Of a stretch of 64,000 nucleotides of DNA, positions 1,141 through 57,900 are shown in pieces. Below the pieces are notes generated by a model. That model was not told the DNA's origin. It saw only the letters and a list, made by a program, of their open reading frames with translations, and did not search any database. Origin of the DNA: Chloroflexota bacterium (GTDB taxonomy: Bacteria > Chloroflexota > Dehalococcoidia > Tepidiformales > Tepidiformaceae); assembly GCA_026705605.1 (NCBI GenBank), contig JAPPAK010000007.1, positions 372,001-436,000 on the forward strand. Reading direction: 5' to 3'. Positions within the stretch are counted from its first letter, which is position 1; each line of letters opens with the position of its first letter. The position numbers and the translations under genes are program-made.

Positions 1141-1227
1141 GCAGGCATTGTAGGCACGGGATTGCTTGCGCCACATCCCGCGTGTGACCTTCACCCCGCG
1201 ACCGGCGGCAGGTCCTACACTTGCGGC

Positions 1228-1833
1228 ATGGCGCCCGCGGTGGTCGTGGTCATCTTCACCGTGCTGGAGGGACGGCTCTCCGTGCTCCTGATCGAGCGCG
1301 CGGCGGAGCCCTGCCAGGGGGAGTGGGCGCTGCCGGGGGGGCTGCTCCAGGCGAATGAGACGCTCGACGGGGCAGCGAGCCGCAAGCTCCAGGACGAGAC
1401 CGGCCTGACGGACGTGTTCCTCGAGCAGCTCTACAGCTTTGACGCGACGGACGAGGGCAACGCGGACATCGTGGTGGCCTACTTCGCGCTGCTGCCGGCG
1501 GCGCAGGCGCGGCTCCGTCGCGAGCTGGAGTGGCGCCCAGCCTGGCGCGCCCTTCGGGACCTCGACGCGCTCGCGTTCGAGAACGAGCAGATCCTCGAAT
1601 ACGCGCGGGAGCGGCTGCGGAACAAGCTCGCCTACACGAACGTGGCCTACAGCTTCCTGCCCCGCCGCTTCACCCTGCGGGAGCTGCAGGGCGTGTACGA
1701 GGCGATCCTCGAAGAGCCGGTCGACAAGCGGAACTTCCGCCGTCGGATGGTCGGGCTCGGCATCGTGCAGGCGACGAACGAGACCCGCAAGGAAGGCGCT
1801 CACCGCCCCGCCCGCCTCTACGAATTCGTCTGA
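1228..1833 (+). CDS. Nudix-domain protein with C-terminal winged-helix region (NrtR-like transcriptional regulator)
   Basis: MAPAVVVVIFTVLEGRLSVLLIERAAEPCQGEWALPGGLLQANETLDGAASRKLQDETGL...; degenerate Nudix box (RK for RE, DE for EE) plus C-terminal FTLRELQGVYEAILEEPVDKRNFRRRMVGLGIV typical of NrtR-type proteins. Start chosen by TACACT-6nt-ATG. Confidence 0.82.
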   Translation: MAPAVVVVIFTVLEGRLSVLLIERAAEPCQGEWALPGGLLQANETLDGAASRKLQDETGLTDVFLEQLYSFDATDEGNADIVVAYFALLPAAQARLRRELEWRPAWRALRDLDALAFENEQILEYARERLRNKLAYTNVAYSFLPRRFTLRELQGVYEAILEEPVDKRNFRRRMVGLGIVQATNETRKEGAHRPARLYEFV

Positions 1834-54896: not shown

Positions 54897-54900
<4 letters not shown>

Positions 54901-55409
54901 GCCCTTTCCTCCACTTCCTCCGGTGCGGCGTCGACGCGGACGAGCGCGTCGGGACTGTCGAGGTAGTCGATATAGAGGATGCCGTTGAGGTGGTCGATCT
55001 CGTGCTCGAGGGCCTCGGCGAGGAGGTCGTCTTCGGCGCGAATGCGGACCTCCCTCCCGGTGGTGGGGTCGATGCCTTTGACGAGGACCTTCACCGAACG
55101 CGTGATCTCACCCCGGAAGCCGGGCACGGAGAGGCAGCCTTCGTGGAGCTGGCGCTCACCCGAGCGCTTGATGATCTCGGGGTTGAGCAAGGCGAAGGGC
55201 TCGGCCGGGGGCGTATCGAGCACGATCACCTGGAGGGGGATGCCGATCTGGGGAGCGGCGAGACCCACCCCGGGGGCGTCGTACATGGTCTCGAACATGT
55301 CCTCGATGAGCTGCGGAATGCTCGAATCGCGCACGCGGACGCGCCTTGCTTTCTGCCGGAGGACGGGGTCGCCGGCGCGCCGGATTGGATGGATCGCCAC
55401 CCTTGGCAT
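54897..55409 (-). CDS. def: Peptide deformylase
   Basis: MPRVAIHPIRRAGDPVLRQKARRVRVRDSSIPQLIEDMFETMYDAPGVGLAAPQIGIPLQVIV...HEGCLSVPGF...ALEHEIDHLNGILYIDYL. Confidence 0.97.
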
Positions 55410-55462
55410 TGTACGGCGGCGCACGATTCGGGCGACTGGCAGGGCCGTTGGCGCGCGTCGCG

Positions 55463-55493
55463 GGGACTTCGTGTACGACGTACACTAAGTCCC
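55463..55493. promoter_or_regulatory. 31-bp near-perfect palindrome overlapping the nadB -10 element (candidate operator)
   Basis: GGGACTTcGTGTACG-a-CGTACACtAAGTCCC: 15-nt arms, one mismatch pair; ends immediately before GTG 55494; contains TACACT 55481-55486. Confidence 0.75.
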
Positions 55494-57038
55494 GTGAGCG
55501 ATCCCCCACGGGCGGATGGGCGGTACCGGGCGATCGTGGTCGGGAGCGGCATGGCGGGCCTCTTCGCCGCGCTCGAAGCAAGCGCGCTGGGTCCCGTGCT
55601 GCTGGTCACGAAGGGGCAGTTGCACGAGGGCAGCACGCGCCACGCCCAGGGCGGCATCGCCGCCGCGATCGGCCCGGACGACTCCACCGAGCAGCACCTC
55701 AAGGACACGATCGCGGCGGGCGCGGGGCTCGTCGACGAAGAGATGGCGCGCATTCTGGTGGAGAGCGCACCGCGCCGCATCCGTGACCTCGAACGGTACG
55801 GGGTCAGCTTCGACAGTGAGGGGGCGAATCGCGCGTTCGGGCGCGAGGGAGCGCACCGGAACGCACGCGTCTTGCACGCTCGTGGCGACCGCACGGGGGC
55901 GGCCATCACCACAGCACTCGCGGAGCAGGTCGAGAGCGGCCGAATAACCGTCAAGGAGCACACGCTGGCAACCGAGGTCCTGCTGGAAAGCGGCTCGACC
56001 GTGGGCGTTCGCGCCCTCGACCAGGGGGCAGGGGCAAAGTGCATCTTCGAGTCGGACGCAGTCGTGCTGGCGACGGGCGGGGCGGGGGCGGCCTTCTCGC
56101 ACACGACGAATCCACCAGTAGCCACAGGCGACGGCATCGCCCTTGCCTTCGACGCCGGGGCGGAGGTGACCGACCTCGAGTTCTACCAGTTCCACCCGAC
56201 GGCCTTCCGCCAGCCGGGAGCGCCGCCCTTCCTGATTTCGGAGGCACTGCGGGGGGAGGGCGCGGTGCTACGCAACGACGGGGGCGAGGCGTTCATGCCG
56301 CGCTACCACGAGCTTGCCGACCTCGCGCCGCGCGACGTGGTCGCGCGGGCGATGGTCGCGGAGATGCGGGGGGCGGGGGCGGACCACGTCTGGCTCGACT
56401 GCAGCGCGCTGGAGCGCGTTGACCCAATCGAGCGGTTCCCGGGGATCGCGGCCTTCTGCCGCGAGCGCGGGGTCGACCTGCGCCGCGACCCGGTACCGGT
56501 CGCCCCCGCCGCGCACTACCTGATGGGCGGCGTGCGCACGGACTCGTGGGCGCGCACGACGGTTCCGGGGCTCTACGCCTGCGGGGAGACCGCGGCGACG
56601 GGCGTCCACGGGGCGAACCGGCTGGCAAGCAACTCGCTGCTGGAAACCGTGGTGTTCGCAAAGCGCGCGGTCGAGCACATCGCGGAGGGGGCGGGCGGCG
56701 CCATGGCGCCCTGCCCGGACTCGACACCGTTCGCGGCGGGCAGAGCGGCGCCCCCCGACCACGCAGCGGTCCAGCGGCTGCTCTGGGAACACGCGGGTAT
56801 CGAGCGCTCAGGAGAGGCGCTCCAGGAGGGTCTCGACGCGATCGACGGATGGCCCGAGGGCGAACCGGAGCCCTCACGGGAGGGGCATGAGGGGCGCTGG
56901 CTGGGGGTCTTCGCGGAGCTACTGCTAACGGCCGCGCTCAGGCGCGAGGAGAGCCGGGGCGCGCATTTCCGCACGGATTTCCCCGAGCGCGACGACTCGC
57001 GCTGGGCGCAACGGCAGGTGTTCCATCGTGCTGATTGA
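55494..57038 (+). CDS. nadB: L-aspartate oxidase
   Basis: GTG start; YRAIVVGSGMAGLFAALEASALGPVLLVTKGQLHEGSTRHAQGGIAAAIGPDDSTEQHLKDTIAAGAGLVDEEMARILVE...HYLMGGVRTD. Confidence 0.96.
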   Translation: MSDPPRADGRYRAIVVGSGMAGLFAALEASALGPVLLVTKGQLHEGSTRHAQGGIAAAIGPDDSTEQHLKDTIAAGAGLVDEEMARILVESAPRRIRDLERYGVSFDSEGANRAFGREGAHRNARVLHARGDRTGAAITTALAEQVESGRITVKEHTLATEVLLESGSTVGVRALDQGAGAKCIFESDAVVLATGGAGAAFSHTTNPPVATGDGIALAFDAGAEVTDLEFYQFHPTAFRQPGAPPFLISEALRGEGAVLRNDGGEAFMPRYHELADLAPRDVVARAMVAEMRGAGADHVWLDCSALERVDPIERFPGIAAFCRERGVDLRRDPVPVAPAAHYLMGGVRTDSWARTTVPGLYACGETAATGVHGANRLASNSLLETVVFAKRAVEHIAEGAGGAMAPCPDSTPFAAGRAAPPDHAAVQRLLWEHAGIERSGEALQEGLDAIDGWPEGEPEPSREGHEGRWLGVFAELLLTAALRREESRGAHFRTDFPERDDSRWAQRQVFHRAD

Positions 57039-57900
57039 ACCACCCCCCGTAGGAACCATCGCCTCCGTGGTGCGAACGGCGCTCTCGGAGGATCGCGCCG
57101 GCGACGACGTCACGACGCAGGCGGTAGTGGAGGAGGGGCTCGTCGCGCGGGGGCAGTTGGTGGCGCGGGAGGCGGGGGTGGTCTGCGGGCTTGTCGTGGC
57201 CCGGTACGTCTTCGCGATGCTGGACGAGGGGACCGCCTTCGAAGCTCATGTGGGCGACGGGGACGAGGTCGAGGGAGGAACGGTTCTCGCGAGCGTGGAG
57301 GGTCCAGCCCGGGCGATCCTGTCGGGGGAGCGGACGGCGCTGAATTTCGTGCAGCGGCTCTCGGGGGTCGCGACGATCACGAGTCGTTATGTAGAGGCGG
57401 CCAAAGGGACGGACTGCGTCATCCTCGACACACGGAAGACGACGCCCGGCCTGCGGGACCTGGAGAAGTACGCGGTGCGCTGCGGGGGCGGGGCGAACCA
57501 CCGGCGCGACCTCGCCGTAATGGGGATGATCAAGGACAACCACCGCGAGGCGCTCGCACGCCAGGGCAAGACGCTCGCGCAGGCGGTGGCAACCATCCGG
57601 CAGCACGCGCCGGAGACGCCGGTCGAAGTCGAGGTCGACACGCTCGAGGAGCTCCGGGGCGCGCTCGACGCGAAACCGGAGTGGATCCTGCTCGACAACA
57701 TGACGACGGAGCAGATGCGCGAGGCGGTCGCGCTCGTCGCGAGGCGGGCGCGGCTGGAGGCGAGCGGCGGCATCACGTTGGAGCGGGTCGCGGAGATCGC
57801 GGCGACGGGCGTGGACGCCATCTCCTCAGGGGCCCTCACCCACAGCGCGCCCGCGCTGGACATCGCGCTCGATATCGACTTCGAGGACCGGGCCGGCTAG
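57028..57900 (+). CDS. nadC: Nicotinate-nucleotide pyrophosphorylase (carboxylating)
   Basis: ...TALSEDRAGDDVTTQAVVEEGLVARGQLVAREAGVVCGLVVA...ERTALNFVQRLSGVATITSRYVEAAKGTDCVILDTRKTTPGLRDLEKYAVRCGGGANHR; overlaps nadB by 11 nt. Confidence 0.97.
   Translation: MLIEPPPVGTIASVVRTALSEDRAGDDVTTQAVVEEGLVARGQLVAREAGVVCGLVVARYVFAMLDEGTAFEAHVGDGDEVEGGTVLASVEGPARAILSGERTALNFVQRLSGVATITSRYVEAAKGTDCVILDTRKTTPGLRDLEKYAVRCGGGANHRRDLAVMGMIKDNHREALARQGKTLAQAVATIRQHAPETPVEVEVDTLEELRGALDAKPEWILLDNMTTEQMREAVALVARRARLEASGGITLERVAEIAATGVDAISSGALTHSAPALDIALDIDFEDRAG

Follow-up and report, generated by a model that had tools for sequence, protein, structure and literature searches.

A conserved palindrome at nadB in Tepidiformaceae is a predicted operator for an NrtR-type regulator of NAD synthesis

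What does the long palindrome that abuts the start of nadB do, and which protein would read it? The stretch analysed here (the window, 64,000 nt) comes from a member of the Tepidiformaceae (Chloroflexota, Dehalococcoidia) and carries at 55463–55493, with no strand assigned, the 31-bp sequence GGGACTTCGTGTACGACGTACACTAAGTCCC, in which 15-nt arms (GGGACTTCGTGTACG-A-CGTACACTAAGTCCC) flank a 1-nt centre and form 14 of 15 complementary pairs. Its core, GTGT-N7-ACAC, occupies 55471–55485. The hexamer TACACT (55481–55486, plus strand) lies inside the right half, 7 nt follow it (55487–55493), and the GTG start codon of nadB, encoding L-aspartate oxidase (55494–57038, plus strand), begins directly after the palindrome ends. 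The first-pass annotation had described a near-perfect palindrome with one mismatched pair, a TACACT within it and an end just before the GTG, and all of these were reproduced at the same coordinates. Its naming of nadB and nadC, genes of de novo NAD synthesis, was likewise confirmed: nadB scores above the cut-off of TIGR00551 and nadC (carboxylating nicotinate-nucleotide diphosphorylase; 57028–57900, plus strand) above that of TIGR00078. The start of nadC overlaps the end of nadB, so the two genes are presumably co-transcribed. The other neighbour, def (peptide deformylase, assigned by a curated model; 54897–55424, minus strand), is divergent.

Among the Tepidiformaceae, nadB is present in all 38 genomes. 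Absence of the motif upstream of nadB in relatives had been named in the first-pass annotation as an observation that would speak against its proposal; when looked for, a T(C/A)GTGT-N7-ACACTA box was found at nadB in 34 of the 35 assessable genomes, covering 18 genera. This count joins a first scan (29 of 30 loci) to five genomes recovered by pattern search (G303, G107, G302, G118 and G266), G303 being the thirtieth locus, whose start the script had missed; in the remaining genome, G272, the nadB region lacks a box of this type. Conservation at the family nadB sites reached 98% in the half-sites, compared with 64% in the 7-bp spacer and 46% in the upstream flank. On these comparative grounds, the palindrome is a predicted DNA operator conserved family-wide.

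Searching with the family pattern TNGTGT-N6-TACACTA yielded one further exact site in the window's own genome, at C8:39307–39325, which reads TAGTGTAGCTGCGACACTA towards the downstream gene, nadA (quinolinate synthase); the relatives examined have similar sites. Because exact-pattern sites occur in this genome only at nadB and nadA, the predicted regulon consists of nadA and nadBC, whose products together lead from aspartate to nicotinate mononucleotide. The family nadA promoters, as read by script, have the form TTGACN-N17/18-CANNNT, with the operator 9–13 bp further on. In about half of them a distal second box covers the −35 element, 50–54 bp upstream, and this distal box is missing in all seven loci read of the window's own genus. 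Paired boxes 50–54 bp apart were seen at nadA in several genera (for example, L201, L203–L207 and L209); such an arrangement would suit cooperative binding or the formation of a short loop.

The candidate reader of these sites is encoded in the same window, 54 kb from nadB. The product of nrtR (1228–1833, plus strand) matches both PF00293 and PF21906 (NrtR_WHD, E 9e-25) above their curated cut-offs, and its Nudix box has RKLQDE in place of the catalytic REUXEE, which bears out the earlier description of a Nudix plus winged-helix protein with a degenerate Nudix box. The Arg-Lys-Leu (K53) and Glu-Thr-Gly positions of this box are invariant among 11 aligned relatives, and the degenerate box would fit a sensor rather than an enzyme. 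The protein scores 141.2 bits against NF050029, which models one orthologous ADP-ribose-responsive repressor, below the equivalog cut-off of 400; it shares that broad family and stands outside that ortholog group. In the Tepidiformaceae loci nrtR was not seen clustered with NAD genes, and the script-readable family loci have no operator palindrome at nrtR, only a TACACT-like −10. In the window this is the TACACT at 1216–1221 (plus strand), 6 nt before the ATG; as it has no palindromic partner, autoregulation of nrtR through the box was rejected. The segment 1216–1228 resembles a leaderless promoter of nrtR's own. Since TACACT recurs here, it looks like a general −10 of the lineage.

Regulator and box also travel together. 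NrtR was found in 35 of the 38 family genomes, among them every one of the 22 good-quality ones; in a Dehalococcoidia class sample, 110 of 295 genomes have PF21906. In many other Dehalococcoidia, nrtR lies at most a few kilobases upstream of nadA on the same contig, and at those loci the box is found about 20–110 bp before nadA. Overall, a box within ~200 bp of the nadA start accompanies 44 of 57 NrtR-positive genomes versus 2 of 29 NrtR-negative ones (Fisher p 2e-10, a value that overstates independence because the genomes are related). Both NrtR-negative genomes with a box are incomplete assemblies (90% and 72%) from families that otherwise have NrtR. The 13 NrtR-positive genomes without a box belong mostly to one family, f27, most of whose members have at this place a variant palindrome (TTTGYGTA..TACGCAAA) that escaped the weight matrix used for the counts; a strict class-wide pattern search was too noisy relative to its control to be used alone. 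A scan of named genomes added an nrtR-nadABC locus with two boxes (L144, apparently the same contig as L242, each being 165,841 bases long, and counted once) and a locus in which the box precedes an nrtR-nadA pair (L186).

Two other loci also carry the box. At L156:4587-14415, from the scan of named genomes, three boxes form a compact NAD regulon, standing before nadE-nrtR with divergent nadK, before pnuC-nadR and before pncA-pncB; from context and domain, we read the AAA_28-domain protein beside pnuC as NadR and the isochorismatase-family protein with pncB as PncA. At L191:8587-12553, on a contig titled as a Chryseobacterium gleum MAG, a TAGTGT-N7-ACACTT box precedes nrtR, which is followed by a NAMPT-type gene and then, as judged by eye only, a phosphoribosylpyrophosphate synthetase-like gene, with a methylase-like gene nearby. 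This locus is reminiscent of a phage or mobile-element cassette for NAD salvage.

A structural basis for recognition is suggested by the closest solved relative, Bacteroides thetaiotaomicron AraR (BtAraR; BT0354; PDB 5bs6, 5dd4, 5ddg and 5deq; phmmer E 6e-41). In its DNA complex, Lys179, Arg180 and Asn181 make the contacts to the GTGT/ACAC bases that define the GTGT motif, the bound DNA being GTGTTACTTTTACAC, a GTGT-N7-ACAC site (PMC4666351). These residues align with K167, R168 and N169 in the recognition helix of the window NrtR (D166-K167-R168-N169-F170-R171-R172-R173), a short tag accounting for the offset between the numbering in the BtAraR paper and that of the aligned chain. The helices read DKRNFRKR in BtAraR and DKRNFRRR in NrtR, and the window operator, GTGTACGACGTACAC, has the identical GTGT-N7-ACAC spacing. 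The two proteins differ in their targets: BtAraR governs arabinose genes, with l-arabinose as its signal (PMC4666351), whereas those of the window NrtR are predicted to be NAD genes.

We therefore put a probability of roughly 0.93 on the reading that the palindrome is an operator for a dimeric NrtR repressor (1228–1833) controlling nadB-nadC, and that the matching operator places nadA under the same control. By homology with the crystal structure, each monomer would read one GTGT half-site through its Lys167-Arg168-Asn169 helix, and about one turn of the DNA would separate the two half-sites. At nadB, the dimer would cover the −10 element and the start of what is predicted to be a leaderless promoter, and the dimer at nadA would sit just downstream of the TTGACN-N17/18-CANNNT promoter, with the −35 element covered too in several other genera. 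Occlusion of the −10 and start at nadB, and of the start region at nadA, would block RNA polymerase and so repress transcription sterically. By analogy with related regulators, a nucleotide that signals NAD turnover, ADP-ribose or NAD, may bind the catalytically dead Nudix domain and alter DNA binding.

The proposal that best survives beside this one is that another transcription factor, of the NiaR, NadQ or NadR type or a new one, binds the palindrome and that NrtR merely co-occurs with it. The remoteness of nrtR from both nadA and nadB in the window genome would suit such a factor, and binding of NrtR to the palindrome is so far a prediction from comparison. Against it, the 3H domain of NiaR (PF02829) matches none of the 38 family genomes although it is found in control genomes, the NadQ consensus (ttATRCTCannntGAGYATaa; PMC5343134) differs from the box, in many other genomes and at the distant loci the box stands beside nrtR or in one operon with it, and the recognition residues and spacing agree with a solved NrtR-family complex. 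We regard a different regulator as improbable. The first-pass suggestion of the NrtR-like protein as the likely binder is instead supported by linkage, co-occurrence, the distant loci and the base-reading residues shared with BtAraR.

An inverted repeat with 15-nt arms and one mismatch could also fold as RNA, acting as a terminator, attenuator or riboswitch-like hairpin in a nadB leader, and here the geometry of the promoter is decisive. The automatic promoter scan reported no sigma-70 promoter with a −35 at nadB, and the −10 is assigned because the distance from TACACT to the start codon is fixed across the family. In 23 of 29 family nadB loci the start codon, as chosen by script, follows TACACT by 5–7 nt, and three of the remaining six (L056, L057 and L061) have an ATG 4–7 nt past TACACT that the script passed over. 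Among loci with the 5–7-nt gap, the number of nadB residues ahead of the FAD-binding motif ranges from 10 to 31, so what is conserved is how far the start codon lies from the promoter rather than from the fold. As TACACT stands 7 nt before the nadB GTG, a leaderless transcript is predicted, and the right operator half fits the −10 of a predicted leaderless nadB promoter. In the left half, the mirror position is occupied by C at 23 of these 29 loci, by A at 5 and by G at 1. A repeat so placed would lie upstream of +1. The automatic scan found no terminator-like site either, and the divergent orientation of def excludes a terminator shared between def and nadB. The far better conservation of the GTGT half-sites than of the spacer, and the identical type of box at NAD genes with different leaders, point the same way. 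An RNA hairpin or terminator was rejected on the promoter geometry and seems very unlikely; the earlier preference for a DNA operator over an RNA hairpin is upheld by the family-wide conservation at nadB together with the second site at nadA. As for def itself, 20 of the 30 nadB loci in the family have it as the divergent neighbour, but it was not found at other nadB loci that keep the operator (for example, L042–L047 of genus g3), so it is dispensable and was rejected as a conserved co-target.

REP-like elements can be long palindromes, but a repetitive, mobile or chance repeat can be dismissed, because the palindrome is single-copy in the 2.79-Mb genome with up to 3 mismatches allowed, is the sole one in the 64-kb window with 15-nt arms, at least 14 pairs and a 0–1-nt spacer, is expected to have no match in shuffled sequence and has kept its place throughout the Tepidiformaceae.

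Variation of the box between lineages was also seen. In f27 (for example, L226, L240, L247 and L255), the variant operator upstream of nadA is TTTGYGTAC-N3-GTACGCAAA, and the NrtR helix reads LDRRNFRKR versus LDKRNFRRR, a pairing confounded by shared ancestry. The Lys-to-Arg exchange was not accepted as the reason for the changed box, as some Arg-bearing f27 members keep TTAGTGTA. A tentative idea, which we hold to be possible and on balance doubtful, is that NrtR operators are parts of the core promoter, the nadB half-site doubling as the leaderless −10 and the mirror C (23 of 29) spoiling a −10 on the opposite strand, and that the shift from TTAGTGTA to TTTGCGTA in the sister family, with Lys-to-Arg at a base-reading position, offers a lead to an NrtR recognition code.

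That NrtR can control nadABC is established (PMC6800001), as is the variation of NrtR motifs from lineage to lineage (PMC4666351). The Mycobacterium smegmatis regulator (MSMEG_3198) is likewise a Nudix-related repressor of de novo NAD genes that binds a palindrome and has lost catalytic activity (PMC6800001). Its motif is GTTTTCGA-N7-TCGAAAAC, compared with T(A/C)GTGT-N7-ACACTA here, and its gene adjoins nadABC and is autorepressed (PMC6800001), whereas the window nrtR lies far from both nadA and nadBC and has no palindrome. Shewanella oneidensis NrtR (PDB 3gz5, 3gz6 and 3gz8) is an NAD regulator of the same Nudix plus winged-helix type but more distant (phmmer E 2e-25), with a different recognition helix (QGKSFRRR). 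ADP-ribose suppresses its DNA binding (PMC4666351) and has been reported to act as anti-repressor in Shewanella, Synechocystis and M. smegmatis (PMC4666351, PMC6800001), whereas Corynebacterium glutamicum NdnR, likewise an NrtR-family regulator of NAD metabolism, has NAD and not ADP-ribose as its reported effector (cited in PMC4666351). NadQ (PMC5343134; PDB 7q91) has a related DNA-binding domain and is predicted to control nadABC, but differs from the window NrtR in its N-terminal domain and its palindrome. Among the papers searched, none joined NrtR with the Dehalococcoidia; RegPrecise 3.0 describes a Chloroflexi regulon collection. Relative to the papers searched, the lineage regulon would be new and the regulator family is known; the novelty is modest and the evidence unusually clear.

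Two remainders are of most interest: the operator overlaps the −10 of a predicted leaderless promoter, and the box changes from one lineage to another. The variation between lineages (GTGT versus GCGT, Lys versus Arg) provides a ready test set for site choice in the NrtR family, and a solved homologous complex ties the operator sequence to specific regulator residues. Together, these comparisons assign, as a sequence-based prediction, a regulator, an operator and a regulon to the NAD synthesis of a bacterial class that is large and mostly uncultured.
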